The position numbers and the translations under genes were made by a program. This document shows, piece by piece, positions 9,925 through 64,000 of a stretch of 64,000 nt of DNA. The DNA lies in assembly GCF_010550675.1 (NCBI RefSeq), contig NZ_JAAGOA010000013.1, positions 124,001 to 188,000 on the forward strand. Reading direction: 5' to 3'. This stretch comes from Phytoactinopolyspora halotolerans (GTDB taxonomy: Bacteria; Actinomycetota; Actinomycetes; Jiangellales; Jiangellaceae). Under the pieces are notes generated by a model. It had not been told where the DNA came from, ran no database searches, and saw only the letters and a program-made list of their open reading frames with translations. The first letter of the stretch is position 1, and each line of letters opens with the position of its first letter.

Positions 9925-9925
9925 G

Positions 9926-39832: not shown

Positions 39833-40603
39833 TCAGCTCTTCGGCTCGATGAACGAGTCGAGGATGGCCACGCTCGCACGTTTGGCTACCGAGATGTTGC
39901 GGGCGTTGTTGTACCGCCACTCGACACCGATCGCGTCGCACGCGCGGGTGAAGATCTCCCGGATGTCGGCCGAGGCATTGGTGAAGTGGTACCGCGGATA
40001 GGGCGGGTAGTCGGTGCCGACGGCCCGGTTGAGTACACGTGTTCCGTCCGAGTGGATCAGCCCACGGATGAGCGGCCTCGGGTCGGCGTCCACCAGCTCC
40101 TGCTGCCACGGAACCAACTCGATCTTCCGCTCATGCTTCCGCCCTGACCCATGCTGCGGAAACAGACAGCCCCAATGCTTGGAGTCCGAATAGAGCTCCG
40201 TACAACCGACGTGATGAATCCGGCCTACCTTGGTAGGAAGCACCGCGCTCATGGCTTCCTCGCACCAGTCCATCAACTGTGGATAGGCGTCACAACACGC
40301 GATGCGCAGCCGGTACACCCCTTTCTTACTGACCGACAGACAGCCATCGCCAAGGTACAGACCAAGCAGATAGACGTACTCCTCGCGCGGAAGCAACGAC
40401 TCCAGATGGTCCGTGCAGACGGGACAGGCGTACCTCGCGTGTCCGACCGCACCGACCCGATGACCATCGAAGTCCGGAGTGCGCCCCTCCAGCCACTCTC
40501 GTATCGTAAAGCGAGAAATCCCGGTAGCCCTGGAGATCTCTGACTTGTTCTTGCCCTCCGCCCAGAGCTTGTTGACCAGGGCGACTTCGTGCGCCGAGTA
40601 CAT
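39833..40603 (-). CDS. Helix-turn-helix protein with LAGLIDADG-like endonuclease motif
   Basis: A 256-residue protein. Residues 1-40 form a resolvase-type helix-turn-helix (NKSEISRATGISRFTIREWL). A CxxC pair (YACPVCTDHL) follows, and then a LAGLIDADG-like motif YLLGLYLGDGCLS (about residue 75) with a second, weaker one at PLIRGLIHSDGTRVL (about 185). This is the layout of stand-alone homing-endonuclease-like proteins common in actinobacteria. Its role is not known. ATG 40603 has GGAAAGGA about 8-14 bases upstream. It lies between pdtaR and a tRNA gene. Confidence 0.82.
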   Translation of the reverse strand: MYSAHEVALVNKLWAEGKNKSEISRATGISRFTIREWLEGRTPDFDGHRVGAVGHARYACPVCTDHLESLLPREEYVYLLGLYLGDGCLSVSKKGVYRLRIACCDAYPQLMDWCEEAMSAVLPTKVGRIHHVGCTELYSDSKHWGCLFPQHGSGRKHERKIELVPWQQELVDADPRPLIRGLIHSDGTRVLNRAVGTDYPPYPRYHFTNASADIREIFTRACDAIGVEWRYNNARNISVAKRASVAILDSFIEPKS

Positions 40604-40680
40604 CCGCGCTATCCTTTCCGGAGTCGTGATGCCACCTCGGCTAGGTCGGGCGGCGCACAGTTTCACAACTTGAAATGCAT

Positions 40681-46773: not shown

Positions 46774-46785
46774 CCCGCGTCAGCG

Positions 46786-47989: not shown

Positions 47990-48982
47990 TCAGATCTTCC
48001 AGGCCTCGACGGTTCCCCCGCTGTCCGCGCTGTGCTGAGCCAGCAGCGCGATCCTGGTGGCGTCGATCGACTCGGCGGTGCCGACCTCCGGCTGTGTGCC
48101 GTCGAGCAACGCGCCGACGAAGTCCTCGGCCGGCCGGCGTCCCGGCGGCAACGGCTCGAGCCAGGTGTCCTGGTCGTGCGTCGCGACCTCCAGCTGCCGT
48201 TCCGTCCAGCGCATCTCCGCGGTGCCGCGGGTGCCGACGAGCCGCATCTGGTAACGGCCGTTGCCGTTGCCCGCCTCCGGAGCCAGCCAATGCGCGTCGA
48301 TCGTGGCCGTCACCGGCCCCGCGCGCAGCAGCATCGACGCGTGGTCGTGGAAATCCGGATACTGCGGATAGGCGCGCTTGCCGGTGGCGCCGACGACGTA
48401 GCCGTCCCGCGCACCGGTCAGCGCCAGCACCATGTCGACGTCGTGCGCCGCCAGATCGGCGAGGACGCCACCGTATGCCGGGGTGAAGAACCAGGGCGGG
48501 CGGTTGCCGTGTCTCAGTGCGTGCGGCCCGGTGCTCGCGATCAGGGCCAGCTCACCGAGCGTCCCGGCGTCGAGCAGCCGGCGCGCGGCCAGCGTGACCG
48601 GGTATCCGCGCTTCTCGAACATCACCGACACGATCCGCCCGCTGTCGGCCGCGGCGTCCTCGATCGCGGACAGCTGGTCGAGCGACGTGCACAACGGCTT
48701 GTCCGCCAGCACGTGCGCCCCCGCGCGCAGTGCATCGACGACGACGCCGGCCCGGTCCACGTAGACGCCGTTCACCGCCACCACGTCGACGTCGTGCTGG
48801 TCCAGCAGCTCCCGGTGGTCCGCGTACGTCGGCACGTCGCCGAGACTGTCGGCATACCGGGCGAGGTTGGCCGGGTCGGGGTCGGAAGCGGCGACCAGCC
48901 GCACCTGCGGGCGGTGCGGCAACTCCGAGAACACGTAACTGACGTGCGGGTGGGCCATGCCGGCCACGGCTAGCTGGATCAC
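47990..48982 (-). CDS. Gfo/Idh/MocA family oxidoreductase
   Basis: A 330-residue NAD(P)-dependent sugar dehydrogenase. The nucleotide-binding N-terminus starts LAVAGMAHPHVSYVFSELP, with cofactor-adjacent VADKPLCTS-like ALADKPLCTSLDQLS (about residue 92) replacing the usual EKP. The C-terminal barrel has GGVLADLAAHDVDM. It is close in layout to the enzyme at 58872 (both have the MAHPH/VQHPH start and DKP motif), so they may be paralogues. GTG 48982 has AAGGAG five bases upstream. It is 67 bp downstream of a second Gfo/Idh gene. Confidence 0.92.
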   Translation of the reverse strand: MIQLAVAGMAHPHVSYVFSELPHRPQVRLVAASDPDPANLARYADSLGDVPTYADHRELLDQHDVDVVAVNGVYVDRAGVVVDALRAGAHVLADKPLCTSLDQLSAIEDAAADSGRIVSVMFEKRGYPVTLAARRLLDAGTLGELALIASTGPHALRHGNRPPWFFTPAYGGVLADLAAHDVDMVLALTGARDGYVVGATGKRAYPQYPDFHDHASMLLRAGPVTATIDAHWLAPEAGNGNGRYQMRLVGTRGTAEMRWTERQLEVATHDQDTWLEPLPPGRRPAEDFVGALLDGTQPEVGTAESIDATRIALLAQHSADSGGTVEAWKI

Positions 48983-49049
48983 GAGAGCTCCTTCATGGCG
49001 ACAATCACCGCCGCCTGCGACGAACGATGCCGTGACCGGTGTGGTGATG

Positions 49050-50117
49050 TCACGGGGACCGTTCCAGTGTCTGGGCCGCCACAGGCACGTCCGGCTGGTC
49101 CAGTGTGACGGCCCGCCCCGTCTCGGCCGCCTCGTAGATGCCGCACAGCAGCCGGACGGTGGCCAGGCCGTCGCGAGCGCCGATCGCCGGTGGCCGTCCG
49201 GACCGGTACGCGTCGACGATGTCCCGCCACTGCGCCAGGTGCCCGGCCAGCCCGATCGCCGACGGGTCGGACGCTCCGCTACCGGGCGCCGCGTTCGGCT
49301 CCGGCGGCGCCGGGACGCCGTCGAAGTCCCAGCTGACCACGTCGCTGTTGGCGAACTCCGCCGCACCCCGGCTGGTGAACAGCTTCATGGTGGCGGGGCG
49401 ACCCGGCGGCGTCGCTGTCGAGGTGACGACGGTGCCCAGCGCGCCGGAGGCGAAGCGCAGCGTGGCGACGGTGGTGTCCTCGGCGTCCATGTCGTGCCCG
49501 AGCGTGTCGTACTGGGCGGTGACCTGGGTAACCGGCCCCATCAGCCAGGCCAGCAGGTCAACGCTGTGCAGGCCCTGGTTCATCAGCGATCCGCCGCCCT
49601 GATCCTGCCGCGTGCGCCAGGCCGCGTGGGCGTAGTACGCGTCGTCACGGAGCCAGTGCACGAACGCCTCGCCCAGCACCGGCCGCCCGAGGGTCCCCTC
49701 GTCGACGAGTCGCTTGACGTACTGGCTCTGCGGTTCGAGCCGGCGCTGCGAGATCACGCTGACGAAGAGACCCCGCTCCTCGGCCACGCGCACGGCCTCC
49801 TCGGCCGAGGCGACGTCGACGCTCAGCGGCTTCTCCACCACCACGTGCTTGCCGGCGCGCAGGGCGGTCAGCGTCTGTTCGCCGTGCAGCCCGCTCGGCG
49901 TGCACAGCACCACCACGTCGACGTCGGGATGCGCGATCACCTCGTCCGGGCTGACATGGACCGCGTCTGCCTGGCCGAGTTCCGCGAGCGTCGACGCGGC
50001 GCCACCGCTGGCCGCCACCAACCGGACGTCGCCCTCCAGGTGCCCCAGGGCCTCGACATGCCGGCGACCGATCGTCCCCATGCCGACCACGCCCACGCCG
50101 ATCGGTTCGCTGCTCAC
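49050..50117 (-). CDS. Gfo/Idh/MocA family oxidoreductase
   Basis: A 355-residue enzyme with GVGVVGMGTIGRRHVEALG (Rossmann), VVEKPLSVDVASAEE (catalytic Lys in EKP, about residue 95) and GGSLMNQGLHSVDLLAWLMG (C-terminal catalytic region). It oxidises or reduces a sugar or inositol. The start GTG 50117 has AGAGGA six bases upstream; the frame stays open to 50279 but that extension looks non-coding. A LacI-type palindrome lies about 110 bp upstream, between this gene and the sulfatase. Confidence 0.93.
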   Translation of the reverse strand: MSSEPIGVGVVGMGTIGRRHVEALGHLEGDVRLVAASGGAASTLAELGQADAVHVSPDEVIAHPDVDVVVLCTPSGLHGEQTLTALRAGKHVVVEKPLSVDVASAEEAVRVAEERGLFVSVISQRRLEPQSQYVKRLVDEGTLGRPVLGEAFVHWLRDDAYYAHAAWRTRQDQGGGSLMNQGLHSVDLLAWLMGPVTQVTAQYDTLGHDMDAEDTTVATLRFASGALGTVVTSTATPPGRPATMKLFTSRGAAEFANSDVVSWDFDGVPAPPEPNAAPGSGASDPSAIGLAGHLAQWRDIVDAYRSGRPPAIGARDGLATVRLLCGIYEAAETGRAVTLDQPDVPVAAQTLERSP

Positions 50118-50224
50118 CGCGCTCCTCTCGTCCACGTCCGGCGAGTGCGGCGTGGCCGCGTACCGCCGTCGCACGCCGTTCTCCGCTCTCGGTACCCACA
50201 CCCTACCGGCGCAATCGAGCAGGT

Positions 50225-50238
50225 TGCAACCGCTTGCA
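50225..50238. promoter_or_regulatory. LacI-type operator upstream of the Gfo/Idh - SGNH gene group
   Basis: TGCAACCGCTTGCA is a 14-bp near-palindrome (one mismatched pair) with the same half-site TGCAA/TTGCA as the perfect palindrome at 57521. Confidence 0.6.
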
Positions 50239-50334
50239 GCGCTGTCGGCCTGCTCGTTCCGCGGCCGGCGGCGGAGCACCGTTCAGGCCCGAGGTTCACA
50301 CCGGAGCGGGCACAGCCGCCCACCGATACAGGGT

Positions 50335-51780
50335 TCAACGTGGCGCCGCGTCCGGCCCGGGCACGTAGCGGGCGAACCCGTCTCCCCGTGCCTCACAGTG
50401 CTCGGCCAGGCGTCGGCGGTGCTCCGCCAGGATGCCCTGATGAGCACCGTCGGTGGCGAGGTTCGTCATCTCCCCCGGGTCGCGGCGCAGGTCGAACAGC
50501 TGCTCCCGATGCAGCCCCCAGGAATGGCACATGTACGCGTACCGCGACGTTCGCAGCATGCGGGCGATCAGACCGGACATCACCGGTGGTGGCATCAGGC
50601 CGGGAAACCGCCACTGTGTCTCGACGATCACCTGATCCCGCCACGATGGATGCACGTGCGACGCGGACCCGACCAGCGGGCGCACACTCGTTCCAGCCCA
50701 CGTCGGATCCGGGGCGATGCCGGCGTAGTCGCACAGCGTGGGCAGCAGATCGAGCCCGACCGAGACCAGCTCCTCGCGTACCCGTGCGTCGACCACCCCT
50801 TCGTCGCGATCCGCCGCCCCGCGCACGCGCCCGTCGCGATTCGCCGCCCCGTTCGGCGCGTCGCCCGGCGGCACGACGATGAACGGCACGCCGGCCGACT
50901 CCTCATACAGATTCTTCTTCTGGTTCCACTGATGCGCGCCCTGCATGTCGCCGTGGTCGGAGGTGAAGACGACGACGGTCTCCTCCCTCAGCCCGGACGA
51001 ATCCAGCGCCGCGAGCAACGACCCGATCTCGGCGTCGACCCGCTCGCACAGCCGGAAATAGGCGTACCGGTAGCGTCGCCACCGCTCCTCGTCCCAGCCC
51101 TGCGTCGGGTGGACGGTCCAGGCGTAGCGCTGCACGAGCCGAAGCGCTTCGGGTTCCTCCGAGCCGGGCGCGAAGTTGGGTGGCAACACCGGCAGCTCTC
51201 GCCAGTCGACGTCCGGCACCTCCCCCGACGGTGGGGCCTGACCGCGTGCCCACTCGCAGATCCCGTGCGGCTCGTTGAACGACGCCACCAGCAGGAACGG
51301 CGCGTCTCGCCGATCCGGAGCGGCCAGGTACTCCGCGCATGCGGCCGCCAGGCCCTCATGGCTGCCGCCATAGATCTCGGTGAAACCGCTGGCCACCGAC
51401 CCCTCTGGCGCACCGGCCCACCCGCTCACCGCCGACGCCTCGTGCGCCGCTCCCGGCACGTGCCACTTGCCGCCGTAAGCGCAGTCATAGCCGGCATCGG
51501 CGAAGACCCGTCCCAGCGACCGCTCCGGGAACGGCCGGTCCGGAACCTGCACGTTGTCGTCGATCCCCAGCTCGGACGGCATCAACCCGGTCATCATCGA
51601 CGCCCGGGACGGGGCGCACAGCGGGCTGGTGCAGTACGCGTTGTCGAACCGGACGCCGGCCGCGGCCAGCGAGTCGATCGCGGGCGTGTGCACGTCAGGG
51701 TTACCCGCGCAGCTCATCGCGTCCGCCGACATCTGATCGGCCATGATCAGCAGCACGTTCAGCCGTCCGCCGGTTTTCAC
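50335..51780 (-). CDS. Sulfatase (formylglycine-dependent arylsulfatase family)
   Basis: A 481-residue type I sulfatase. The signature CAPSRASMMTG (about residue 53) carries the cysteine converted to formylglycine. The N-terminal metal Asp is in LLIMADQMSADAMSC, and further site residues lie in YDCAYGGKWHVPG and VFTSDHGDMQGAHQW. There is no signal peptide, so it would act on imported sulfated sugars. It needs a formylglycine-generating enzyme, not present here. The start GTG 51780 has GGAGG eight bases upstream and avoids a large palindrome that the longer frame would include. Confidence 0.93.
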   Translation of the reverse strand: MKTGGRLNVLLIMADQMSADAMSCAGNPDVHTPAIDSLAAAGVRFDNAYCTSPLCAPSRASMMTGLMPSELGIDDNVQVPDRPFPERSLGRVFADAGYDCAYGGKWHVPGAAHEASAVSGWAGAPEGSVASGFTEIYGGSHEGLAAACAEYLAAPDRRDAPFLLVASFNEPHGICEWARGQAPPSGEVPDVDWRELPVLPPNFAPGSEEPEALRLVQRYAWTVHPTQGWDEERWRRYRYAYFRLCERVDAEIGSLLAALDSSGLREETVVVFTSDHGDMQGAHQWNQKKNLYEESAGVPFIVVPPGDAPNGAANRDGRVRGAADRDEGVVDARVREELVSVGLDLLPTLCDYAGIAPDPTWAGTSVRPLVGSASHVHPSWRDQVIVETQWRFPGLMPPPVMSGLIARMLRTSRYAYMCHSWGLHREQLFDLRRDPGEMTNLATDGAHQGILAEHRRRLAEHCEARGDGFARYVPGPDAAPR

Positions 51781-51813
51781 TATCCGGACCTCCGCACTCT
51801 CATACCTGCTCGG

Positions 51814-51872
51814 CCCCATGATCATGAACAGTAACCGTGCTATGTACACGGTTACTGTTCATGATCATGGGG
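51814..51872. repeat. Perfect 26-bp-arm palindrome containing TGATCATG
   Basis: Arms 51814-51839 and 51847-51872 are exact inverted copies around the seven-base loop CTATGTA. It lies between the starts of divergent sulfatase and GntR genes, so it is not a terminator of either. The arm begins CCCCATGATCATG, sharing the core of the palindrome at 17501. Confidence 0.95.
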
Positions 51873-51998: not shown

Positions 51999-53150
51999 AT
52001 GCCGGACACCACCGCACTGAGCGAGGCGCCGCACGGGACGCGGTTCCGCATGCTCGCGTCGATGATCCGGCGTGACATCGACCGCGGCACGCTCCCGGTC
52101 GGGTCTCGACTGCCGGCGGTGCCAGAGCTCGCCAAGGCGCACGGCGTCGGCGTCAATACGGTGCGGCGTGCGGTGGCTCGCCTGGTGGAGGACGGGTTGC
52201 TGGACCGTCGGCACGGCAGCGGCACCTACGTCCTGCGGACGTCGGCCGATCGGCAGGTACGCCGCGCGGTCGGCGTCCTCGTTCCGTCGCTCACGTACTA
52301 CTACCCGCAGGTGATCGCCGGGATCGAGGAAGCGGCGTCGCGTCGCGGGGTGGACGTCGTCATCGCGTGTTCGTACTATGACGCCGACCGCGAACTCGCC
52401 GAGATCGACCGGTTCCTCGGCTCCAGCGTGGACGGCATGCTCCTGGTCCCCAGTCTGCATCGCGCGCCCGACCCGGCCAGGTACGTCTCGCGGCTAAGCA
52501 AACTGCCGGTCCCGTACTTCCTGATCGAGCGCCGGCTCGACGATCCCGCCGCCGACGCGGCCGACAGCACCGACGTGTCCTCCGTCCGGACCGACATAGC
52601 CGCCGGAGTGCGTGCCGCGATCGCCCACCTCACCGCGCTCGGCCGGCGCCGCATCGGGCACATCGGCCATCTGAGCTCGGCACCTGGAACACGTGTCTTC
52701 CGCGGATTTCTCGACGCCATGCGGGAATTCGGCCTGGAGGTGATCGACGGGGCCGTCCTCCGCCGTCCCACCCTGTCGATGGCCGAGGTCGGGCAATACG
52801 TCACGACATGTGCCCGGGAGCAGCTGGATGCGGTGTTCTGCCTGGGCGATCCGTTTGCCGCCACGCTTGTGCGTGAACTCGGCAAGCACGGCCACCCGGT
52901 TCCTGACGACGTCGCCGTCATCACCTTCGACGACGAGTTCGCCCACGTGGCCGAGGTGCCGTTGACGGCCGTGTCGCCGCCCAAGTACGAGCTCGGTCGG
53001 CTCGCCACCGACCTGCTGGTCCGCCGGCTGGAGGACGGCGGCCCGGCGGTCGCCTGCGACGTGCGCCTGCAGCCCAAGCTCGTGATCCGATCCTCGTGCG
53101 GGGCGCGACCGACCGAAACCATCGACCTCGTGTTCGAACCGACCGGCTGA
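51999..53150 (+). CDS. GntR-family regulator with LacI-type sugar-binding domain
   Basis: A 383-residue regulator. Residues 15-80 form a GntR winged helix (LPVGSRLPAVPELAKAHGVG, NTVRRAVARLVEDGLL). Residues 95-375 are a periplasmic-binding-like sensor as in LacI/AraR (AVGVLVPSLTYYYPQVIAGI, GHIGHLSSAPGTRVFRGF, VITFDDEFAHVAEVPLTAV). Such hybrids bind a sugar and leave DNA. The gene is divergent from the sulfatase and directly precedes the PL8 lyase, so it probably controls polysaccharide-degradation genes. Confidence 0.93.
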   Translation: MPDTTALSEAPHGTRFRMLASMIRRDIDRGTLPVGSRLPAVPELAKAHGVGVNTVRRAVARLVEDGLLDRRHGSGTYVLRTSADRQVRRAVGVLVPSLTYYYPQVIAGIEEAASRRGVDVVIACSYYDADRELAEIDRFLGSSVDGMLLVPSLHRAPDPARYVSRLSKLPVPYFLIERRLDDPAADAADSTDVSSVRTDIAAGVRAAIAHLTALGRRRIGHIGHLSSAPGTRVFRGFLDAMREFGLEVIDGAVLRRPTLSMAEVGQYVTTCAREQLDAVFCLGDPFAATLVRELGKHGHPVPDDVAVITFDDEFAHVAEVPLTAVSPPKYELGRLATDLLVRRLEDGGPAVACDVRLQPKLVIRSSCGARPTETIDLVFEPTG

Positions 53151-53195: not shown

Positions 53196-55658
53196 GTGAC
53201 CAGCCATCACCGTCCCCTGCCCAGACGCAGTCTCCTCATCGGCGCGGCGTCGACCGGCGCCGTCCTGTCCACCGGAGCGATGTCCAGATGGGCGGCACCG
53301 CTCGCCGCCGCACCGCTCGCCGCCGCACCGCTCGCCGCCGCAGCGACCGACGCCGCCTACGCGGCGCTGCGGAGTGCCTGGGTCGATGTCCTCACCGGCG
53401 GACCGCAGGACCTCGGCGATCCCGACGTGCAGGCCGCCATCACCCAGCGTGACACCGCCACCGCCAATGCCCTCGCCCTGGTCGATCCCGACCCGAACCG
53501 GACCGCGGTGTTCACCGACATCCCGTACAACCCGGCGGACACCCTCCGCTCACGCGGCGTCGCGCAGTCGTGTTCGCGGATCAAGGCCATGGCGCTGTCG
53601 TGGGCGACCGAGGGCTCGTCGTACTACGGCGACGCCGCCCTCCGCGACACGATGCTCGACGCCGTCGACACCGTCCTGACCCACAACTACGTCGCCGGCG
53701 AGCCGGAAGACGACAGCTGGTACAACCACGAGATCGCCATCCCGCAGTACCTCAACGACGCCCTGACGATCCTGCACGCACACGTCGGCTCCAGCATCAT
53801 GCAACGGCACACCGCCGCCGTTGACTGGTTCGTGCCGGACCCGCGCTACAACTATCCGCCGAGCCATCCCAAGCACAAGCTCTCCACCGGCGGCAACCGC
53901 GTCGACCTGTGCGAGGTGGTGATCATCCGCGGCGCACTCGACCACACCGAAGCGCGCGTGGCCGACGGACGGGACGCGCTGAGCGGCGTCTTCGAGTACA
54001 CCACGTCCGGCGACGGGTACTACCGCGACGGCGGCTTCATCCAGCACACATCGATCCCCTACACCGGCACCTACGGGCGGGTCCTGTTGCAGGGAGCCGC
54101 GACCCTGATCACGCTGCTGGCAGGTACGCCGTGGGAGGTCACCGATCCCGATGTGGAGATCATGTTCGACGCGGTGGAGAACTGCTACGCACCGACGATC
54201 TTCGACAACCAGCTGTTCTCCAACATGTGCGGGCGCGCCGTGTCACGTAAGAACAGCGTCGAGCACGGCCCGGCCATCAGCATCGCCGACGGCATCCTCA
54301 CGCTGGCCGGCGCCGTGGGAGCCAGCCGGGCCAAGGCCTGGCGCGAGATGTGCGTGGGCTGGTTCACCCGGGACGAGTTCGTCGATCCCACCGCCACCTC
54401 CGACCTGCGGCGGCTCGCCCTGTTCAAGGGCCTGATGAACGACGCCGGTCTGACGCCTACGCCCGAGCCGGTCGGGCACCGGCTCATGTCCAGCGTCGCC
54501 CGCCCGATCCACCGCCGCGACGGCTGGGCGTTCACCGTCGCGATGGCGCGCGAGGGGGTGCACGGTGCCTACGAGGCGAATCGCGAGAATCAGCACGGCT
54601 GGTACCAGAACCGGGGCGCCACATACCTGTACGTGCGCACGGACAACGCGCAGTTCAGCGACGCGTACTGGCCGACCGTCGATCCGCTGCGGCTGCCCGG
54701 GACCACCGCTCAGCGACGCGACGACATGCCGGACGGCGACTGGCGCAAGGCCTACGGGCACTTCGGCGGGGGCGCGTGCGTCGACGGTGAGTTCGCCGCC
54801 ACCGGCATGCGGATGTCGAAGGGGCCGGGCGGACACTCGCTGAGCGCGCTGAAGTCGTGGTTCTGCCTCGACGACTGCATCGTGGCGCTCGGCACCAAGA
54901 TCACGTCCACCGAGAACTACACCGTGCAATCCGTGCTGGAGAACCGGAACCTGCACGAGACCGGCACGAACGCCCTGACCGTCGACGGCGAGGTCTTCCC
55001 GTTGGGGCTGGGCGACGACGAATACCTCGGCCGGCCCGGCTGGCTGCATCTGGAGGACGTCGCCGGCTACGTCCTGCTCGACGCGGCCAACGGCAGCCCG
55101 CTGCGCGCCGCACGCGAGGAACGCACCGCGACCTGGCTGGACATCAACCCGTACTGGTCCACCCACGACGACACGCCGTACACCCGCCGCTACGTCACCG
55201 TGTACTTCGGCCACGGCCGCGCACCTACGAACCGCGAGTACGGGTATCTGCTGCTCCCGGGCGCGACACCCGCCGAGACCGCCGCCCGCGCGGCCGACCC
55301 CGGCGTCGAGATCCTGGCCAAGACCACGAACGTGCACGCGATCCACGTGCCACATCTCGGTTTCACCGGCGCGAACTTCTTCTCCGGCGGCTACACGGTC
55401 CAGCTCGGCGGCGGCGCCACGCTCGGCACCGACAAGAACGCCTCCGTCGTCCTCTCCCAGCAGGGAAACGAGCTGTGGGTCGGTGTCGCCAATGCGACAC
55501 ACCGCCTCGACTCTGTCACGGTCACGCTCAGCGGCACGTCGTACAGTCCGTCGTCGAGCGACCCGACCGTGCAGGTGAGCAAGTCCGGCCGCACGATCAC
55601 CATCACTGTCGACACCAGCGCTCGCGACGGCCGCACCCACCGCGCCATCCTCGTATAG
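53196..55658 (+). CDS. Tat-exported polysaccharide lyase family 8 (hyaluronate/chondroitin/xanthan lyase type)
   Basis: An 820-residue secreted lyase that cleaves uronate-containing polysaccharides by beta-elimination. The N-terminus has a Tat signal (PRRSLLIGAASTG) followed by a three-fold PLAAA repeat encoded by 15-bp units. Residues 50-390 form the alpha/alpha toroid with catalytic residues: Asn in STGGNRVDLC, His in GFIQHTSIPYTGTYG, Tyr in the same stretch, and Arg in CGRAVSRKNSVEHG. Residues 400-820 are the beta-sandwich domains. The exact polysaccharide cannot be read from sequence. The start is GTG 53196 after GGAGG. Neighbouring sulfatase and amino-sugar genes support a glycosaminoglycan-like substrate. 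Confidence 0.94.
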   Translation: MTSHHRPLPRRSLLIGAASTGAVLSTGAMSRWAAPLAAAPLAAAPLAAAATDAAYAALRSAWVDVLTGGPQDLGDPDVQAAITQRDTATANALALVDPDPNRTAVFTDIPYNPADTLRSRGVAQSCSRIKAMALSWATEGSSYYGDAALRDTMLDAVDTVLTHNYVAGEPEDDSWYNHEIAIPQYLNDALTILHAHVGSSIMQRHTAAVDWFVPDPRYNYPPSHPKHKLSTGGNRVDLCEVVIIRGALDHTEARVADGRDALSGVFEYTTSGDGYYRDGGFIQHTSIPYTGTYGRVLLQGAATLITLLAGTPWEVTDPDVEIMFDAVENCYAPTIFDNQLFSNMCGRAVSRKNSVEHGPAISIADGILTLAGAVGASRAKAWREMCVGWFTRDEFVDPTATSDLRRLALFKGLMNDAGLTPTPEPVGHRLMSSVARPIHRRDGWAFTVAMAREGVHGAYEANRENQHGWYQNRGATYLYVRTDNAQFSDAYWPTVDPLRLPGTTAQRRDDMPDGDWRKAYGHFGGGACVDGEFAATGMRMSKGPGGHSLSALKSWFCLDDCIVALGTKITSTENYTVQSVLENRNLHETGTNALTVDGEVFPLGLGDDEYLGRPGWLHLEDVAGYVLLDAANGSPLRAAREERTATWLDINPYWSTHDDTPYTRRYVTVYFGHGRAPTNREYGYLLLPGATPAETAARAADPGVEILAKTTNVHAIHVPHLGFTGANFFSGGYTVQLGGGATLGTDKNASVVLSQQGNELWVGVANATHRLDSVTVTLSGTSYSPSSSDPTVQVSKSGRTITITVDTSARDGRTHRAILV

Positions 55659-56382: not shown

Positions 56383-57486
56383 TCACGGCAATTGGCCGTC
56401 GAGAGCGTGGTAGAAGGGGTCGTCCACGCCGATCTCGCCGCGCTTGACCGTGCGTCCGGTGAACGCCGACGCGTACAGCGCGGTGATCAGCTCCAACGCC
56501 GCCCGTCCGCTGTCGCCGCTGGTCTCCGGGCGACGTCCGGCCCGGAGATCGGCGACGACGGCACGCAGCTGGGACAGGTGGTTCGTCTCCTCGTCGGGCA
56601 GGTCGTTGGCCCACTCCGCCACCGCTTGCTCGGCGACGCCGTCGGCCGGCGTGCAGGTCCAATCGGAGTTTCGGTACCGGTACAGGTGCGTCAGCTCGAC
56701 GGTCGCCAGCTCGGTGTCGATGCGCAGGCGGCTGACCGATTGCGGTGAGACCGCGCTGTTCACCACGGTGCCCAGCGCACCCGACTCGAACCGGACGACG
56801 GCCGTGCTGACGTCATCGGTCGCGATGTCGCGGCTGGTCGTGGCGGCGAACGCGGAGACCTCCCGCCAGGGGCCGACCATGGTCAGCATGAGGTCGATAT
56901 TGTGGATGCCCAGCGCCATGGCCGGTCCCCCGTCGCCGCGGAAGTTCCCGCGCCACGCCGGTTCGAAATAGTCCGGCCCGCGGAACCAGGTGGTCTGACA
57001 GTGCACCGCCAGCGGACGCCCGAGAACGCCGCCGGTCAACAGCCGTCGGTAGTGCCGGGCGCCGGGGCCATAACGCAGCTGGAAGACGATCGGCGCATAC
57101 GGTCCTCCCTCCCGCTCCCCCGCGACCATCTGGTCATACTCGGCCAGCGACAACGCGGGCGGCTTCTCGCACAGCACCCACGCACCCGAGGCCAGCGCCT
57201 CCGCCACATGCTCGCGGTGGAGCACCGGCGGGGTCGCGACGATCACCAGCTCCGGGGCTTCCGCCGCGAGCATCTCGCCGAGCGCGGTGTATCGGCCGCG
57301 GATACCCCAGCGATCGGCGAACTGGTGCAGCGTCTCCGGCTGGACGTCCACGGCGGCGACCAGGTCGATCTCGTGGCCGAGCTCCCGCACCGCAGGCAGA
57401 TGTCCGACCTCGGCGATCACTCCGGTGCCGACGATGGCCGCGCGGATCGGCTGCTGAGCGGTGTCGGATGGTCCTTGAACGTGCAC
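56383..57486 (-). CDS. Gfo/Idh/MocA family oxidoreductase
   Basis: A 367-residue NAD(P)-dependent enzyme with Rossmann start AAIVGTGVIAEVGHLPAVRE, EKP motif VLCEKPPALSLAEY (about residue 105) and C-terminal GGPAMALGIHNIDLMLTMVG. It probably acts on a sugar or uronic acid. The start GTG 57486 has GAGGAG with nine-base spacing. A perfect TGCAAGCGCTTGCA operator lies 35 bp upstream, and the LacI gene lies just beyond on the same strand, so LacI control is likely. Confidence 0.92.
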   Translation of the reverse strand: MHVQGPSDTAQQPIRAAIVGTGVIAEVGHLPAVRELGHEIDLVAAVDVQPETLHQFADRWGIRGRYTALGEMLAAEAPELVIVATPPVLHREHVAEALASGAWVLCEKPPALSLAEYDQMVAGEREGGPYAPIVFQLRYGPGARHYRRLLTGGVLGRPLAVHCQTTWFRGPDYFEPAWRGNFRGDGGPAMALGIHNIDLMLTMVGPWREVSAFAATTSRDIATDDVSTAVVRFESGALGTVVNSAVSPQSVSRLRIDTELATVELTHLYRYRNSDWTCTPADGVAEQAVAEWANDLPDEETNHLSQLRAVVADLRAGRRPETSGDSGRAALELITALYASAFTGRTVKRGEIGVDDPFYHALDGQLP

Positions 57487-57520
57487 AGGTGGCTCCTCGG
57501 CGCGACGGTCGGCGCAGGCG

Positions 57521-57534
57521 TGCAAGCGCTTGCA
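57521..57534. promoter_or_regulatory. Perfect LacI-type operator between lacI and Gfo/Idh genes
   Basis: TGCAAGCGCTTGCA is a perfect 14-bp palindrome with central CG, the classic LacI/GalR-family operator form. It is 35 bases upstream of the Gfo/Idh start and 91 bases after the end of the lacI-type gene. Confidence 0.75.
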
Positions 57535-57624
57535 GCGGTCTGGCCATGCTGTCGACGGCGTCGCGGCCTGTCAACCCTCGCACGCCACCGGTCGTCCGCA
57601 GGACGGGGAGGTCTCAGGACAGAC

Positions 57625-58650
57625 TCATCGCGACGCCCGCCGCGCCTCGCGCCGCTCGTCGTGCCGCGGGGCCGGACCGGTCGAGCCGCGCACCACGAGT
57701 TCGCCGGACAGCGAAAGCTGCTGGTCACGTGTGATGAGACCGTCCAGCTGGTCGACCAGCAGCCGGACGGCCGTGCGGCCCGCGTCGGCGATCGGGCTGG
57801 CGATCGATGTAAGCGGCGGATACGCCATCGCCGCGAACAGGATGTCGTCACAGCCGCTCACGCTGAACTGCCCCGGTACGTCGAAGCCCCGTTCGGTCAG
57901 CCGGCGCAGGATCCCCATCGCCATGATGTCGTCGAACGCGACGGCGGCCGTGGCGCCGCTGGCCGCCAGCGCGTCGGCGGCCAGCATGCCGCCGGAGAAC
58001 GTCGCCGGATAGGGTCCGAGCACCTCGAACGCCATGCCGAGCTTGCGCGCCTGCCGCCGCGCGCTGTCCCGCCGTTCCCGGTCCGACCACGACGACGCGG
58101 GGCCGGACACGTACACGATGTCCCGGTGCCCGAGGGCGTGCAGATGGTCGACGGTCTGCCGGATGCCGTCCCGGGTCCGGCAGGTGATCGACGCGATGCC
58201 GTCGACCGCGCGGTTGACCAGAACCACCGGCGTCCGCTCAGCGGCTTCCCGGATCACCCCGGCCCGGGACCGCGGCGAGCAGACGATGACGCCGTCGGCC
58301 TGGCCGGCCAGGTCCCGCAGCATCTTCGACTCGCGCTCGGGATGTTCATCGGTGTCCATCAGCAGCACCGAGTAGCCCTTCTCATACGCGGTGTCCTCGA
58401 CCGCCCGCACCAGCGGCGGGAAGAACGGATTGGCGATGTCCGGCAGCAGCACGGCGAGCAGCGCGGTCCGTCCGGTGACCAGCCCGCGAGCCGATCGGTT
58501 GGGTCGGTAACCCAGCCGATCGGCGATCGCGAGAATCTGCTTGCGGGTGTCCGCGCCGATGAGCTCCGGCCTGGTGAAGGCCCGGGAAACGGTGGAGATC
58601 GATACTCCCGCCTCGGCGGCGACCGCCTTCAACGAGGCTGTCCTGGCCAT
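57625..58650 (-). CDS. LacI family transcriptional regulator
   Basis: A 341-residue repressor. The helix-turn-helix and hinge are textbook (SLKAVAAEAGVSISTVSRAF, then IADRLGYRPNRSARGL). The sugar-binding domain includes LLAVLLPDIANPFFPPLVRA and the dimerisation region GFDVPGQFSVSGCDDI. ATG 58650 follows GAGAAGGGA. The DNA-binding helix motif SISTVSRAF and four nearby operator-like palindromes suggest local control of the Gfo/Idh genes, deaminase and transporter. Confidence 0.95.
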   Translation of the reverse strand: MARTASLKAVAAEAGVSISTVSRAFTRPELIGADTRKQILAIADRLGYRPNRSARGLVTGRTALLAVLLPDIANPFFPPLVRAVEDTAYEKGYSVLLMDTDEHPERESKMLRDLAGQADGVIVCSPRSRAGVIREAAERTPVVLVNRAVDGIASITCRTRDGIRQTVDHLHALGHRDIVYVSGPASSWSDRERRDSARRQARKLGMAFEVLGPYPATFSGGMLAADALAASGATAAVAFDDIMAMGILRRLTERGFDVPGQFSVSGCDDILFAAMAYPPLTSIASPIADAGRTAVRLLVDQLDGLITRDQQLSLSGELVVRGSTGPAPRHDERREARRASR

Positions 58651-58725
58651 GCCCGCGTCCCTTCTCTCCGGCGCGAGAGTATCCGCGCGATGGCAGGAGT
58701 CATTCCCTGCCTCCCTATCGCAACA

Positions 58726-58770
58726 TTGACACTCCAGAGCGTGCCATGCAATTGTGTGCAAACGCTCGCA
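58726..58770 (+). promoter_or_regulatory. Promoter and 16-bp operator for the Gfo/Idh - deaminase genes
   Basis: TTGACA (58726-58731), 17 bases, CAATTG (58749-58754), then at once TGTGCAAACGCTCGCA (58755-58770). The same 16 bases recur exactly at 60780-60795 with the same spacing. A repressor bound there would block transcription start. Confidence 0.65.
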
Positions 58771-58871
58771 TCGGAGATGCGTGGCATCCTCCTCCGGCCG
58801 ACCCCCGACGGACGCGTCGCCTCGGACCGCCCCTCAACCGCAACTCACCCCACGATGGACGGTGACGGGAT

Positions 58872-59915
58872 ATGACGATCAGAATCGGCATCGCCGGAGT
58901 GCAGCATCCGCACATGGACGCGATACTCGACGACGCCGCAGCGCACACCGGTGCCGAACTCGTCGGCCTGGCCGAGCGGGACCCCCGGCTCCGCGCCGAA
59001 TACGCACAGCGCTACCGGGTGGCCGCGTTCGAGGACCACACCCAGCTTCTGGACGCGGGCGAGCTCGACGCGATCCTGGTGGGCGACGTCTTCGGCGCGC
59101 GCGGACGGATCATCGCCGACGCTCTCGGGCACGGCTTGCACGTGCTGACCGACAAGCCGATGTGTACGACGCCGGCCGATCTCGACGCCATCCATCACGC
59201 CTGGCGAGGCGGCGACCGGGTGCTCACCATCGCGTTCGAGAAGCGGTTCCTGCCGGCGACACTCGCGCTGTCCGAACTGCTCGATGCAGGCGAACTCGGT
59301 GAGATCGTGATGGTCACGAGTGCCGGGCCGCACAAACTCATCCGCGACGAGCGGCCGGCGTGGATGTTCCACGACGACACGTACGGCGGGATCCTGAACG
59401 ACCTCGTCGTCCACGACATCGACCTGCTCCTGCACCTGACCGGCGCCGCCAGCGGCACCGTGCGCGGCTACGCCGGCAACCGCTGCCATGCCGACGTGCC
59501 GGAGTTCGAGGACCACGGACTCGCCGTGATCCAGGTCGACGACGGACCGCTCGCCTCACTGGACGCGCACTGGATGAGCCCCCAGGCCGCACCCTACTTC
59601 GGCGACATCGCGATGACCGTCGTCGGTACGCACGGCACGGCCGAGCTGCGCTGGATCCACAATCGCCTCATCCTCGGCACACACCACCGTCCGCCCGCCG
59701 AGATCCCGCTGCCGGGGCGGCGCAGTGCGACGCGCGACTTCCTGGATGCGCTCACCGACGGCCGCCCACCCGCCGTGACCGCGCACGCCTCGTTCGCCGC
59801 GACCGCCGTCGCGCTCGCCGCGCAGCGCAGCGCCCGGCTCGGCCACCCTGTGACCTGGGACGTCGACACATACCGGCGGGAGCCGGCCGACGCCCGCACG
59901 TCGACGACGATGTGA
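58872..59915 (+). CDS. Gfo/Idh/MocA family oxidoreductase
   Basis: A 347-residue enzyme. The N-terminus IGIAGVQHPHMDAILDDAAA and cofactor-adjacent HVLTDKPMCTTPADLD (DKP in place of EKP) resemble the gene at 47990, as does GGILNDLVVHDIDLLLHLTG. A paralogous relation is likely. It is first in a transcript with the glucosamine-6-phosphate deaminase gene (10 bp gap) and is controlled by the operator at 58755. Confidence 0.93.
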   Translation: MTIRIGIAGVQHPHMDAILDDAAAHTGAELVGLAERDPRLRAEYAQRYRVAAFEDHTQLLDAGELDAILVGDVFGARGRIIADALGHGLHVLTDKPMCTTPADLDAIHHAWRGGDRVLTIAFEKRFLPATLALSELLDAGELGEIVMVTSAGPHKLIRDERPAWMFHDDTYGGILNDLVVHDIDLLLHLTGAASGTVRGYAGNRCHADVPEFEDHGLAVIQVDDGPLASLDAHWMSPQAAPYFGDIAMTVVGTHGTAELRWIHNRLILGTHHRPPAEIPLPGRRSATRDFLDALTDGRPPAVTAHASFAATAVALAAQRSARLGHPVTWDVDTYRREPADARTSTTM

Positions 59916-59925
59916 AGGAGACCCG

Positions 59926-60732
59926 GTGTCCACTCCTGAGATCACCCGAGCACGGAGCACCACCGTCGACCGGCTCCGCGTGCGCGTCCACGACCACGTG
60001 GACGCCGCCGGCCGGGCCGCCGCCGCGCTGGTCGCGCAGGCGCTGCGGCAGCGGATCGACGATGCCGGCGAGGCCCGGATCATGTTCGCCGCCGCGCCGT
60101 CGCAGGATGCCGTCCTGCACGCACTATGCCGGGAACGCGACGTCGACTGGTCGCGCGTCACCGCGTTCCAGATGGACGAGTACGTCGGACTCGACGCCGA
60201 CCACCCACAGGCGTTCGGCACGTACCTGCAGGAGCACATCTATACCTTCGTCCGGCCCGGCCGCGTCCACCTGATGCGGCCGGACGGCGACGGCGCGCAG
60301 GAGGCCGAGCGCTACGCGGCGCTGCTCGGCGAGGCTCCGATCGACGTGGTCTGCCTGGGCATCGGCGAGAACGGGCACATCGCGTTCAACGATCCGGGTA
60401 TCGCCGACTTCGAGGATCCGTTCGCGGTCAAGGTGGTGGAGCTCGACCCGGCGTCGCGCCGGCAGCAGGTCCACGACGGGTGTTTCCCGTCCGTCGGTGA
60501 CGTGCCCACGCACGCGGTCACGGTGACCGTTCCTGCCCTGCTCAGCGCCTCGGTCGCGATCTGCTCGGTGCCGGGCGCCCGGAAACGTGCCGCCGTCCAA
60601 CGGGCGCTGACCGGCGAGGTCAGCGAGGACTGCCCGGCCAGCGCGCTCCGCCGGCATCCGGACGGGTGGCTCTTCCTCGACCCGGCCAGCACCCCCGATG
60701 ACCTGCTGCGTACGGATGAGACGACCGCATGA
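59926..60732 (+). CDS. nagB: Glucosamine-6-phosphate deaminase (NagB family)
   Basis: A 268-residue isomerase/deaminase that converts glucosamine-6-phosphate to fructose-6-phosphate and ammonia. Family motifs are FQMDEYVGLDADHPQAFGTY (about residue 82), CLGIGENGHIAFNDPG (about 140, with the catalytic Asp/His region) and ICSVPGARKRAAVQRALTG near the end. The first Met lies in a GTG-preceded site (GGAGACCCGGTG). It suggests the island handles amino sugars, as expected of glycosaminoglycans. It follows the Gfo/Idh gene by 10 bp. Confidence 0.93.
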   Translation: MSTPEITRARSTTVDRLRVRVHDHVDAAGRAAAALVAQALRQRIDDAGEARIMFAAAPSQDAVLHALCRERDVDWSRVTAFQMDEYVGLDADHPQAFGTYLQEHIYTFVRPGRVHLMRPDGDGAQEAERYAALLGEAPIDVVCLGIGENGHIAFNDPGIADFEDPFAVKVVELDPASRRQQVHDGCFPSVGDVPTHAVTVTVPALLSASVAICSVPGARKRAAVQRALTGEVSEDCPASALRRHPDGWLFLDPASTPDDLLRTDETTA

Positions 60733-60740
60733 GATACCCA

Positions 60741-60795
60741 AGTCATTCCATTGACGGGCTTGACCCGTGCGTGCAACCTTGTGCAAACGCTCGCA
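60741..60795 (+). promoter_or_regulatory. Promoter and 16-bp operator for the transporter operon
   Basis: AGTCATTCC, then TTGACG (60751-60756), 17 bases, CAACCT (60774-60779), then TGTGCAAACGCTCGCA (60780-60795). The operator is identical to that at 58755, with the same spacing to the promoter. Confidence 0.65.
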
Positions 60796-60894
60796 CAGTT
60801 CCGAGCAGTCAGATGGAGGCACCATGACCGCCCACCTTCGAGTGGCATTCCGGGAATGCGCTCTCCAGCGTCACACTGCCGGCTGTGAGCGACC

Positions 60895-61968
60895 ATGATC
60901 GGCTATCTCGCTCGCCGTCTCGTGCGGCTCATCCTGTCCCTCGTCGCGGTCTCGCTCATCACGTTCGGCCTGCTACAGCTTGTGCCGGGATCGTTCGCCG
61001 ACCTGGCCGACTCCGGCACGTCGGACCTCGGCGGCGACTCGGCGACGTCCGGCAGCGAACTGGCCCAGCGTTACGGCGCCGACGTGCCGGCCTGGGAGCA
61101 GTACCTGACATTCATGCGCGGTGCCGTCACCCTCGACATGGGACCGTCCTACCGCTACCCGCAGGCGACCGTCGAGGACCTGATCTTCGACGCGTTCCCG
61201 GTCTCGCTGTCGCTGGCGGTACCCGCCACGCTGTTGACCCTGCTGATCGCGATCCCGATCGGTGTGCTCGCCGCGGTGAAGAAGGACAAGCTCGCCGACT
61301 ACGGCTCGATCTTCACCCTGACCTCGCTGCAGGCACTGCCCGGATACCTGTTCGCGCTGCTGCTGGTGTTGATCTTCTCCGTGGGGCTCGGCGTGCTGCC
61401 GGTCCGGGGCTGGTCCGGCCCGGAGTACATGATCATCCCGGTGGTCGCGCTCGCGATCCAGCCGATCGCCATGCTGGCCCGGTACGTACGCACGTCGATG
61501 CTGGAAGAGCTGCGCGAAGAGTACGTCATCGCCGCGCACGCCAAGGGCGGGCAGCGGCGCACCGTGCTGGGCCGGCACGTCCTGCGCAACTCGATGATTC
61601 CGCTGGTGACGATCGTCGGACCGATCTTCGCACAGCTGGCGACCGGGACGGTGTTCATCGAGGCGCTGCTCGGCATCCCCGGCCTGGGCAGGCTTTTCAC
61701 CACGGCGGCGCGGACCAGGGACATGCCGTTGCTCATGGGCACGACGTTGTTCTTCGCGCTCGTCTTCCTGCTGATCAACCTGATCGTCGACCTGACCTAC
61801 AGCCTGCTCGATCCTCGCATCCGGCATGAACAGTCCAGTAGCTGGCGACGCACGAGGCGACCGCTCCGGCTGCGCGCATCGAAGAGTCGCGAGCCCGGCA
61901 CGGACCGGCCGGCCGCCCCTGATCGATCACCGGGCGCATCGGACACGATGGAGGTGGTGCGGCCATGA
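60895..61968 (+). CDS. Oligopeptide/dipeptide-type ABC transporter permease (DppB type)
   Basis: A 357-residue permease with six transmembrane segments; the first starts IGYLARRLVRLILSLVAVSL. The conserved LARYVRTSMLEELREEYVIA and AAHAKGGQRRTVLGRHVLRN (ATPase contact) are typical. The C-terminal ~50 residues are basic and disordered. In this setting the family often carries unsaturated oligosaccharides instead of peptides. It overlaps the next permease gene by four bases (ATGA). Confidence 0.93.
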   Translation: MIGYLARRLVRLILSLVAVSLITFGLLQLVPGSFADLADSGTSDLGGDSATSGSELAQRYGADVPAWEQYLTFMRGAVTLDMGPSYRYPQATVEDLIFDAFPVSLSLAVPATLLTLLIAIPIGVLAAVKKDKLADYGSIFTLTSLQALPGYLFALLLVLIFSVGLGVLPVRGWSGPEYMIIPVVALAIQPIAMLARYVRTSMLEELREEYVIAAHAKGGQRRTVLGRHVLRNSMIPLVTIVGPIFAQLATGTVFIEALLGIPGLGRLFTTAARTRDMPLLMGTTLFFALVFLLINLIVDLTYSLLDPRIRHEQSSSWRRTRRPLRLRASKSREPGTDRPAAPDRSPGASDTMEVVRP

Positions 61969-62888
61969 GCGAGCTCATGCACAACGCGTCGACGGGCGAC
62001 GCACTCGGCTCGGCACTCGCGTCCGGCACGTCCGGCGGACAGAGCGAGCTCGGGCGCGGGTGGGCCCGCTTCAAGCACAACAAGCTCGCCCTGGGCAGCC
62101 TGGTGTTCATCGGCCTGCTTATCGTGGTCGCGCTCGCCGCACCCATCCTGGCGCCGTACTCGTATGCCGAGCAGGACCTGACCAACCGGTTTCAGCCGTT
62201 GTTCTCCGACGGGCACCTGCTCGGCACCGACGAGCTGGGCCGGGACGTGTTCTCGCGGCTGATCTACAGCCTGCGCACGGCGCTGATGATCGGCTTCGCC
62301 GCCGAGCTCCTAGCCTTGGCTATCGCCCTGGTCATCGGCATGTGGGCAGCTTATCGGGGCGGCCGCGTCGAGCAATGGCTGATGGCGTTCACCGACGTCA
62401 TGTACGCCTTCCCGACTTACCTGTTCGCGGTGCTGCTCGTCGTCATCATGGGCCGCTCACCGCTGGCGATCGTCGTCGCGATCGCGACCGCGACGTTTGT
62501 GAACCAAGCCAGACTGGTCCGGGCACAGGTACTGAAGATCAAGACGTTCGAGTTCATCGAGGCGTCCCGGTCCATCGGCACCGGCGGCGTGGCGATCACC
62601 ATCCGGCACATTCTTCCGAACGCCGTCGGTCCGTTGCTGGTGGCGACGAGTTTCGGCATCCCGAACGCGATCATCGCGGAGTCCGGCCTGGCGATCCTGG
62701 GGCTCGGTGTCGCCCCGCCGACGCCGTCGTGGGGCGGCATGATCGTCGACGGATACGGCTACGTCCTCGGGAACCCGCAGCTGATCGTGGCGCCGCTCGT
62801 GCTCTTCGGGCTCACCATGCTGGCCTTCACCTGGATCGGCGACGGTCTGCGAGACGCCTTCGACACCAGCGAGGAGGACCGGGCGTGA
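61965..62888 (+). CDS. Oligopeptide/dipeptide-type ABC transporter permease (DppC type)
   Basis: A 307-residue permease partner. The N-terminal helix is HNKLALGSLVFIGLLIVVAL, with the family motif LGTDELGRDVFSRLIYSLR at about residue 85 and the ATPase-contact loop VRAQVLKIKTFEFIEASRSI. The C-terminus GGMIVDGYGYVLGNPQLIVA is typical of DppC. It overlaps the ATPase gene by four bases (GTGA). Confidence 0.95.
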   Translation: MSELMHNASTGDALGSALASGTSGGQSELGRGWARFKHNKLALGSLVFIGLLIVVALAAPILAPYSYAEQDLTNRFQPLFSDGHLLGTDELGRDVFSRLIYSLRTALMIGFAAELLALAIALVIGMWAAYRGGRVEQWLMAFTDVMYAFPTYLFAVLLVVIMGRSPLAIVVAIATATFVNQARLVRAQVLKIKTFEFIEASRSIGTGGVAITIRHILPNAVGPLLVATSFGIPNAIIAESGLAILGLGVAPPTPSWGGMIVDGYGYVLGNPQLIVAPLVLFGLTMLAFTWIGDGLRDAFDTSEEDRA

Positions 62889-64000
62889 ATCCAGTCACCA
62901 CCTCCAGCACCACCGCGGGCGCATCGGCCGACGGTCCCGCGCGGCCGTTGCTCTCGGTACGTGACCTGCGGGTGGCCTTCCGCAGCCGGGCAGGCGAACT
63001 CGTTCCCGCGGCGAGCCTCTCCGTCGACGTACCTGCCAACGGGGCGCTCGCGATCGTCGGTGAGTCCGGCTCGGGCAAGACCGTCAGCATGCGCGCACTG
63101 CTGCGGCTGCTCCCGGACAGCGCCGTGGTGTCCGGCGAGGCGCATTTCGAGGGCCAGGATCTGCTCGCCCTGTCCGAGTCGGAACTCAGGCGCGTCCGCG
63201 GCCCCGGCATCGGGATGATCTTCCAGAACGCCATGTCCGCGCTGAATCCGACCCGCACGCTCAAGGTGCAGCTCACCGAGCACCTGCGCTGGCACGGCAT
63301 CTGCGACCGGAAAGAGGCCGTGCGCCGCGCCGTCGACGCCCTCGACCGGGTCGGCATACCCGAGCCGGAGCGCCGGATCCGGATGTATCCGTTCCAACTG
63401 TCGGGTGGGATGCGGCAGCGGGCCATGATCGCGATGTCGATCGTCGCCGGTCCCCGCCTGCTGATCGCCGACGAGCCGACCACTGCCCTCGACGTCACCA
63501 TCCAGCGCCAGGTGCTGGACGTCCTCAAGGGTCTCCGAGACGACGGCCTGGCAGTGATCATGATCACTCACGACCTCGGGGTGGCCCGGTACCTGTGCGA
63601 CGACGTCGTCGTGATGAAAGACGGGCAGATGGTGGAGACGGCGACCATGGACGGGTTCGTCGCCGCCGCCGAGCAGCCCTACTCGCGCCGGCTCCTGGAC
63701 GCGGCGCCTGACGTCGACCTTCGCGCCGAACCGTCGCGCAGCCGATCCGCCGCGAAGACGACGGCCGCGGAGAAGACGGGCACGGAAACGACAGCCACCG
63801 CGGACGACCATGAGAGCCGCGATGCCACGGACGACGCGGCCGCGACGCAGAACGCGAACCGGCCGGCGCCCGTGTCCCGCAAGGTGTTGGTCCAGGCGAA
63901 CGACCTGGTGAAGATCTTCCACGGCCGCGGCGGCGACGTCCGCGCCGTCGACGACGTCAGCATCACGATCGGGGCCAACGAGACCGTGGGCGTGGTCGGC
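62885..64000 (+). CDS. ABC transporter ATP-binding protein, apparently a DppD-DppF fusion (cut by window edge)
   Basis: At least 372 residues are visible and the frame is still open at the edge. The first ATPase domain is complete: Walker A GESGSGKTVS (about residue 58), Q-loop MIFQNAMSALNPT, signature LSGGMRQRAMIAMSI, Walker B LLIADEPTTALDV, switch MITHDLGV. A charged Ala/Thr/Asp linker follows. A second ABC domain begins (VLVQANDLVKIFHGRGGDVR, then ETVGVVG, heading into a second Walker A). The two ATPases of an oligopeptide-type transporter are thus probably one chain. GTG 62885 overlaps the permease stop. The substrate-binding protein is not in the window. Confidence 0.92.
   Translation, partial: MNPVTTSSTTAGASADGPARPLLSVRDLRVAFRSRAGELVPAASLSVDVPANGALAIVGESGSGKTVSMRALLRLLPDSAVVSGEAHFEGQDLLALSESELRRVRGPGIGMIFQNAMSALNPTRTLKVQLTEHLRWHGICDRKEAVRRAVDALDRVGIPEPERRIRMYPFQLSGGMRQRAMIAMSIVAGPRLLIADEPTTALDVTIQRQVLDVLKGLRDDGLAVIMITHDLGVARYLCDDVVVMKDGQMVETATMDGFVAAAEQPYSRRLLDAAPDVDLRAEPSRSRSAAKTTAAEKTGTETTATADDHESRDATDDAAATQNANRPAPVSRKVLVQANDLVKIFHGRGGDVRAVDDVSITIGANETVGVVG

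Follow-up and report, generated by a model that had tools for sequence, protein, structure and literature searches.

A predicted three-promoter LacI regulon at a PL8 lyase and ABC-transport locus of Phytoactinopolyspora halotolerans

Repressors of the LacI family mostly bind to even palindromes with a central CG (PMC4052901). The local LacI regulons of RegPrecise described in the same paper, a set in which Actinobacteria are under-represented, combine an adjacent LacI gene, even CG-centred palindromes near promoters, and operons for the transport and catabolism of one substrate. In the hyaluronate regulon of Streptococcus a LacI-family regulator, RegR, goes together with genes of hyaluronate-lyase-type enzymes and an importer (PMC3302838, PMC3616900). 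We have analyzed a stretch of 64,000 nucleotides from Phytoactinopolyspora halotolerans (termed the window; all coordinates count from its first letter) that resembles both of these systems. It harbors a LacI-family gene and two copies of a 16-mer, TGTGCAAACGCTCGCA, in the promoter regions of neighbouring sugar-related genes. Comparison with two relatives, P. endophytica and Jiangella asiatica, both Jiangellaceae, points to a real and conserved LacI regulon of ordinary kind that would comprise three promoters. This is a specific and testable regulator-operator assignment for a locus of PL8 genes (polysaccharide lyase family 8) and ABC transport in the Jiangellaceae. No such regulon for this family is described in the open-access literature among the matches listed, and the literal operator strings led to no related paper in the open-access literature.

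Operator sites and the neighbouring LacI-family protein

Both copies of TGTGCAAACGCTCGCA are exact and stand at 58755-58770 and 60780-60795, as the initial annotation had reported, and the gene context given there was also found: the first copy (A) precedes a pair of Gfo/Idh and NagB-like genes, the second (B) Opp-type ABC transporter genes. Each 16-mer contains the CG-centred TGCAAACGCTCGCA, and a 14-bp CG-centred core of LacI type, TGCAANCGCTNGCA, together with an upstream TGCAA describes the operator better than the 16-mer does. The regulator and the three sites are as follows.

57521-57534, minus strand: third operator, S1, a perfect palindrome, TGCAAGCGCTTGCA (7 of 7 pairs match), upstream of the Gfo/Idh gene at 56383-57525
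57625-58650, minus strand: LacI-family repressor, its start taken to be the ATG at 58650; the conserved start is downstream of the listed TTG (58761)
58757-58770, plus strand: core of operator A, TGCAAACGCTCGCA, in the divergent spacer between lacI and gfo-nagB, with an orthologous site in P. endophytica and J. asiatica
60782-60795, plus strand: core of operator B, TGCAAACGCTCGCA, upstream of oppBC-oppDF-SBP-PL8-PL8 (SBP, solute-binding protein), kept in P. endophytica

It is highly probable that the 16-mers are operators of the neighbouring LacI repressor, whose dimer would repress three promoters until a sugar releases it. The dimer would bind to the CG-centred core TGCAA(A/G)CGCT(C/T)GCA around the transcription start of gfo-nagB (operator A), of oppBC-oppDF-SBP-PL8-PL8 (operator B) and of a second gfo gene (S1). 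Bound LacI would block transcription, and an intracellular sugar from imported polysaccharide fragments would release it. Operator A may in addition control lacI itself, as judged from its place in the divergent spacer, where its near edge is 107 bp from the lacI ATG.

The sites are rare in the genome (7,303,666 bases in 65 contigs). A whole-genome search with the 16-mer, as proposed in the initial annotation, found three places at up to two mismatches, namely A, B and a two-mismatch place on another contig; within one mismatch the 16-mer occurs only at A and B. In the window, a scan allowing up to three mismatches gave three matches, the third at 57519 with three mismatches, compared to a mean of 0.68 in shuffled windows, and three matches were reached in 3 of 100 shuffles. 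The initial annotation had further called a repetition of 16 bases by chance very unlikely. For identity alone this does not hold, since the nine dispersed exact direct repeats of at least 16 bases in the window (copies at least 300 bp apart) fall within the range of 30 third-order Markov simulations (mean 5.5, range 2-9). A repeated exact 16-mer is thus not remarkable here, and we have rejected it as proof by itself. For position and conservation the claim stands: two intergenic spacers of 221 and 162 bp are expected to share a 16-mer about 4e-5 times, based on base composition only, and the match is then conserved. A separate exact direct repeat of 20 bp, at 31769-31788 and 57705-57724, joins an ORF (open reading frame) that looks ABC-ATPase-like by eye with the lacI gene, and appears to be coincidental coding sequence.

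The LacI protein has close orthologues only in P. endophytica (86% identity) and J. asiatica (80%), the only ones above 47% among the 148 relatives searched, where a LacI match at E 1e-60 was found in 34 genomes, our own included. A collection of named genomes gave the same picture within a search limited by two short peptide patterns: of 80 loci kept, only P. endophytica (85%, best segment) and J. asiatica (80%) exceeded 44%. The operators are kept together with the LacI gene: S1 and A in all three genomes, B in two of the three. The S1 palindrome is identical at the corresponding place, upstream of the second Gfo/Idh unit, in both relatives. In J. asiatica the B spacer and its promoter are gone and the stop of nagB and the start of oppB are one base apart, so that one transcript can serve both units; membership of the two units in a single regulon would predict such a loss. 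Across the spacer A alignment of the three genomes, 18 of the 19 columns of half-site and core are invariant, as against 60 of 159 others. Counted by element, invariant gap-free columns make up 6/6 of the -35 box, 4/14 of the promoter spacer, 5/5 of TGCAA, 2/5 of the following five bases, 13/14 of the core and 48/134 of the rest.

The protein itself fits this type of site. It matches PF00356 with 45.8 bits (cut-off 27) and PF13377 with 120.2 bits (cut-off 26.5), that is, an N-terminal helix-turn-helix (HTH) and a C-terminal periplasmic-binding-like domain, and its relatives of solved structure include CcpA, LacI and PurR; 18 NCBIfam models matched, none of them at its cut-off. In the alignment the recognition helix reads SISTVSR and the hinge NRSARGL, with Ala and Leu present. 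It has been described that Arg at position 20, in TVSR, is paired with a G of the half-site, while the two bases after it go with residues 15-16 (PMC2978694). The TGCAA half-site has the G expected from the TVSR Arg. Of 13 parsed loci that encode further LacI homologues carrying Ser at position 16, 7 contain TGCAANCGNTTGCA with at most one mismatch (exact at two of these seven), where base shuffles predict 0.1. Sorted by recognition pair, such sites occur at 4/5 AS, 2/4 SS, 1/1 PS and 0/3 VS loci, the four AS loci being near-relatives and not independent. These numbers come from 31 scanned loci, from which 18 were left out: 14 without a parsed recognition helix, the three orthologues of IS type, and L041, an AA locus with sites one mismatch off.

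Promoters and the upstream TGCAA half-site

The initial annotation had placed operators A and B directly behind promoters of the form TTGAC(A/G)-17 bp-CAAnnn. The first part was found as described, TTGAC(A/G) starting 29 bp before each 16-mer (TTGACA at 58726-58731, TTGACG at 60751-60756). CAAnnn is weak as a -10 box. AAnnnT, one base beyond it and preceded by TGC, fits better, since its second A and its final T are present in all five A/B promoters of the three genomes, 17-18 bp behind TTGAC(A/G).

58726-58755, plus strand: candidate promoter A, TTGACA, 18 bp, AATTGT (58750-58755), a weak putative -10
58747-58751, plus strand: half-site TGCAA of promoter A, 10 bp before core A and overlapping the proposed -10
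60751-60780, plus strand: candidate promoter B, TTGACG, 18 bp, AACCTT (60775-60780), a weak putative -10
60772-60776, plus strand: half-site TGCAA of promoter B, 10 bp before core B

In all five promoters TGCAA lies exactly 10 bp before the core; this additional conserved half-site, which overlaps a poor -10 box, is what is unusual about the locus. Exact copies of the extended motif TGCAA-N5-TGCAANCGCTNGCA number five in 393 genomes of the class (a larger set than the 148 relatives searched for LacI orthologues), and all five lie at A/B promoters; the reversed pattern, used as control, gave none.

A tentative and rather doubtful extension of these data is that A and B are operators with three half-sites: TGCAA, one helical turn of 10 bp, a second TGCAA, the CG centre and TCGCA. 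A LacI dimer could then bind in two overlapping registers, over the -10 box or over the start site, and the promoter could keep AAnnnT instead of TAnnnT because these bases double as an operator half-site. In its favour TGCAA is kept in all five promoters, while the spacer of A (4/14 invariant columns) and the next five bases (2/5) diverge, and the 393 genomes have no exact copy of the extended motif outside these promoters. The competing explanation takes TGC-AAnnnT for an extended -10 element and nothing more. This would account for TG, for the A at position two and for the T at position six. It leaves the fixed C and the first A, in place of the T at position one, unexplained, and a repressor half-site fits these two better. 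If true, the three-half-site arrangement would show in nature, and in compact form, how LacI sites can overlap. Binding of a tetramer at overlapping sites about 13 bp apart has been called hard to reconcile with known structures (PMC4052901).

An inverted repeat, GGCAGGAGTCATTCCCTGCC, lies at 58692-58711 in the spacer between lacI and gfo and is matched in P. endophytica (one free base), with no other copy at up to two mismatches in either genome. In a search of the three genomes, the two congeners alone had an exact match to the dyad GGCAGGAGTCATNCCCTGCC upstream of promoter A. Compared with Rfam (E up to 1), the leaders had a single match, to a microRNA family of animals; it did not reach the gathering score of that family and was set aside.

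Evidence against the assignment and rival explanations

Several observations weigh against assigning A, B and S1 to the neighbouring LacI protein. The palindromes of cores A and B are imperfect, 5 of 7 pairs matching in each. The system was found in only three genomes, and the A sites are therefore orthologous rather than independent; B was compared between the congeners only, where its flanks are conserved too (mean column identity 80%). A consensus scan of 57400-61000 found no sigma-70-type promoter, which is why we infer the transcription starts. The extended motif with one mismatch occurs at nine further places in nine other genomes, as against 12 control matches, so these places are background. 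At up to one mismatch, TGCAANCGCTNGCA is not enriched in the own genome (27 rows compared to 105 for the reversed control, palindromes being counted on both strands); since the control gives more, such matches mean nothing alone. Exact bare cores number 4 rows in J. asiatica against 5 control matches, and 10 against 2 in P. endophytica; the bare core is an insufficient signal. Finally, six of the 13 Ser-16 loci, including all three with VS, lack a site of the TGCAANCGNTTGCA type, and LacI paralogues that share this Ser of the recognition helix could recognize sites of a similar kind.

Exact copies of TGCAANCGCTNGCA in the own genome are found in the window at 50225, 57521, 58757 and 60782, and outside it on contig C3 at 48954 and on contig C8 at 161375, four of the six lying within about 10.6 kb of the locus. 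The copy on C8, TGCAACCGCTTGCA, was set aside, as it falls within a reading frame for a lipoprotein-type solute-binding protein, close to the start of that frame. We did not add the site at 50225-50238 to the three operators of the local LacI, because its form, TGCAAGCGGTTGCA, is that found near LacI paralogues of the SS type. In the relatives the loose core is exact in J. asiatica on contig C101 at 111986 (TGCAAACGCTAGCA) and in P. endophytica on C1 at 482322 and on C5 at 437646.

The site at 50225-50238 is of interest in its own right. It reads TGCAACCGCTTGCA, stands upstream of a Gfo/Idh gene and is kept in P. endophytica. The same type of motif is found 1-2 kb from SS-type LacI paralogues (contig C3 here, C34 in P. 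endophytica), beside one in another relative (G004), and also on contigs C4 and C9 of P. endophytica. This distribution suggests a second LacI input to the locus through motifs of this type.

The rival that survives best is that a paralogous LacI with the recognition pair SS, encoded on contig C3 at 45959-46942, acts on the sites, or that a number of LacI paralogues do so jointly. The C3 protein is 46% identical to the local LacI and carries SS-TVSR; TGCAACCGCTTGCA is found some 2 kb away from its gene as well as at 50225 of the window, and the TGCAA half-site is the same for SS-type sites. We nevertheless consider this unlikely, because the sites near the SS-type genes that were parsed (C3, locus L035, and C34 of P. 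endophytica) are of the form TGCAAGCGGTTGCA or TGCAACCGCTTGCA and not TGCAA(A/G)CGCTCGCA, and because A, B and S1 accompany the IS-type LacI in three genomes. It is a more serious rival than a regulator encoded at 51999-53150, a hybrid of a GntR-type HTH and a LacI-type sensor, which the initial annotation had named as an alternative. The hybrid belongs to the same gene cluster, where its gene adjoins a PL8 lyase gene, has a sugar-sensing domain and a 77% orthologue in P. endophytica. That it binds the sites is very improbable all the same: no J. asiatica protein matches it with more than 43% identity, below a 47% paralogue in the own genome, while J. asiatica keeps its two operators, and the sites are CG-centred as described for LacI operators (PMC4052901). 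The LacI protein is thus the better candidate, because J. asiatica keeps the sites without a close orthologue of the hybrid. That the 16-mer recurs by chance, or through the copying of a promoter that has no operator function, as the nine direct repeats, the AGTCATTCC and ATTGAC shared upstream of A and B, and the conserved B flanks might suggest, is scarcely credible given that both copies are intergenic, that spacer A keeps core and half-site and not the rest, and that a further promoter has a third copy, which is palindromic.

The proposal that a single LacI protein, encoded at 57625, defines a compact regulon was therefore retained in substance, based on the uniqueness of the sites in the genome, their conservation with lacI in two further species and the want of a close J. 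asiatica orthologue of the GntR hybrid. Parts of it have changed. The regulon would have three promoters, not two, and the transporter operon would continue past the window, with a solute-binding protein gene and two PL8 genes.

Target genes, substrate and comparison with known systems

The predicted targets and their neighbours are the following.

50335-51849: sulfatase
53196-55658: third PL8 gene
56383-57525, minus strand: Gfo/Idh/MocA oxidoreductase behind S1, its listed TTG start inside the operator
58872-59915, plus strand: Gfo/Idh/MocA oxidoreductase, first gene behind operator A
59926-60732, plus strand: NagB-like amino-sugar-6-phosphate deaminase (PF01182; NCBIfam NagB models matched below their cut-offs)
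60895-61968, plus strand: OppB-type permease, first large gene behind operator B
61965-62888, plus strand: OppC-type permease, by profile matches
62885-64000, plus strand: OppD-OppF fusion ATPase of 630 amino acids, running past the window
Beyond the window, after OppD-OppF (coordinates of locus L004): SBP_bac_5 protein at 6803-8614 and two PL8 lyases at 8695-11139 and about 11100-14099

Since the listed TTG lies inside S1, the GTG at 57486 is probably the true start of the Gfo/Idh gene at 56383-57525. The first gene behind S1 in J. asiatica has an Amidohydro_1 match, and this domain would make its product NagA-like. With that protein as query, no NagA was found in the window or the next 14 kb at E 1e-5. 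The solved relatives of the NagB-like protein are glucosamine-6-phosphate deaminases.

For all three PL8 proteins the best match among solved structures is chondroitin AC lyase; after it come xanthan lyases, hyaluronate lyases and a secreted lyase without assignment, in an order that differs among the three. One of the two PL8 proteins behind B carries CBM96. The substrate is likely a hyaluronan- or chondroitin-like polymer of uronic acid and amino sugar, to judge from these enzymes, and xanthan-like substrates are possible. GH88 was not found in the cluster, and the sole match in the genome, on contig C4, scored 24.7 bits (36.2 with in-frame neighbours; cut-off 26.6). The PL8 cluster without GH88 holds four Gfo/Idh genes (47990-50279, 56383-57525, 58872-59915), for which a role in oxidative glycoside cleavage might be considered.

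Two small observations concern other reading frames. Between operator B and oppB, a 24-codon ORF at 60824-60898 ends in a TGA that overlaps the oppB ATG (ATGA). Its P. endophytica counterpart has 41 codons, the same overlap and a common RVA..E.ALQR stretch, and the ORF is possibly a translationally coupled leader. Elsewhere in the window, the ORF at 39833-40666 has an HTH-like start and a LAGLIDADG-like stretch, YLLGLYLGDG, as judged by eye, and could possibly encode a free-standing homing endonuclease.

In gene content the locus resembles described clusters for glycosaminoglycans. Unlike the RegR regulon of Streptococcus, which uses a phosphotransferase system, it has an importer of the Opp-type ABC class, and the GH88 gene of that regulon has no counterpart found in the cluster (PMC3302838, PMC3616900). 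The glycosaminoglycan cluster of Streptobacillus moniliformis likewise brings together PL8 lyases, a sulfatase and an ABC importer with a solute-binding protein (PMC5430744). That cluster has GH88 and Kdu/Kdg enzymes, whereas here Gfo/Idh and NagB-like proteins and an SBP_bac_5 binding protein of Opp type are found (PMC5430744). With respect to the operators, actinobacterial LacI-family repressors of the AcrC/MalR type have half-sites of the CTTGCAG type, reported also as repeats in direct and inverted orientation, close to promoters or downstream of them, which resembles the arrangement at A and B, while the half-site and the target genes differ here (PMC5526262). There is also a difference in spacing. 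In the RegPrecise regulons the distances between sites peak at 13, 22 and 32 bp (PMC4052901), whereas the additional TGCAA stands 10 bp upstream of cores A and B in the locus described here.

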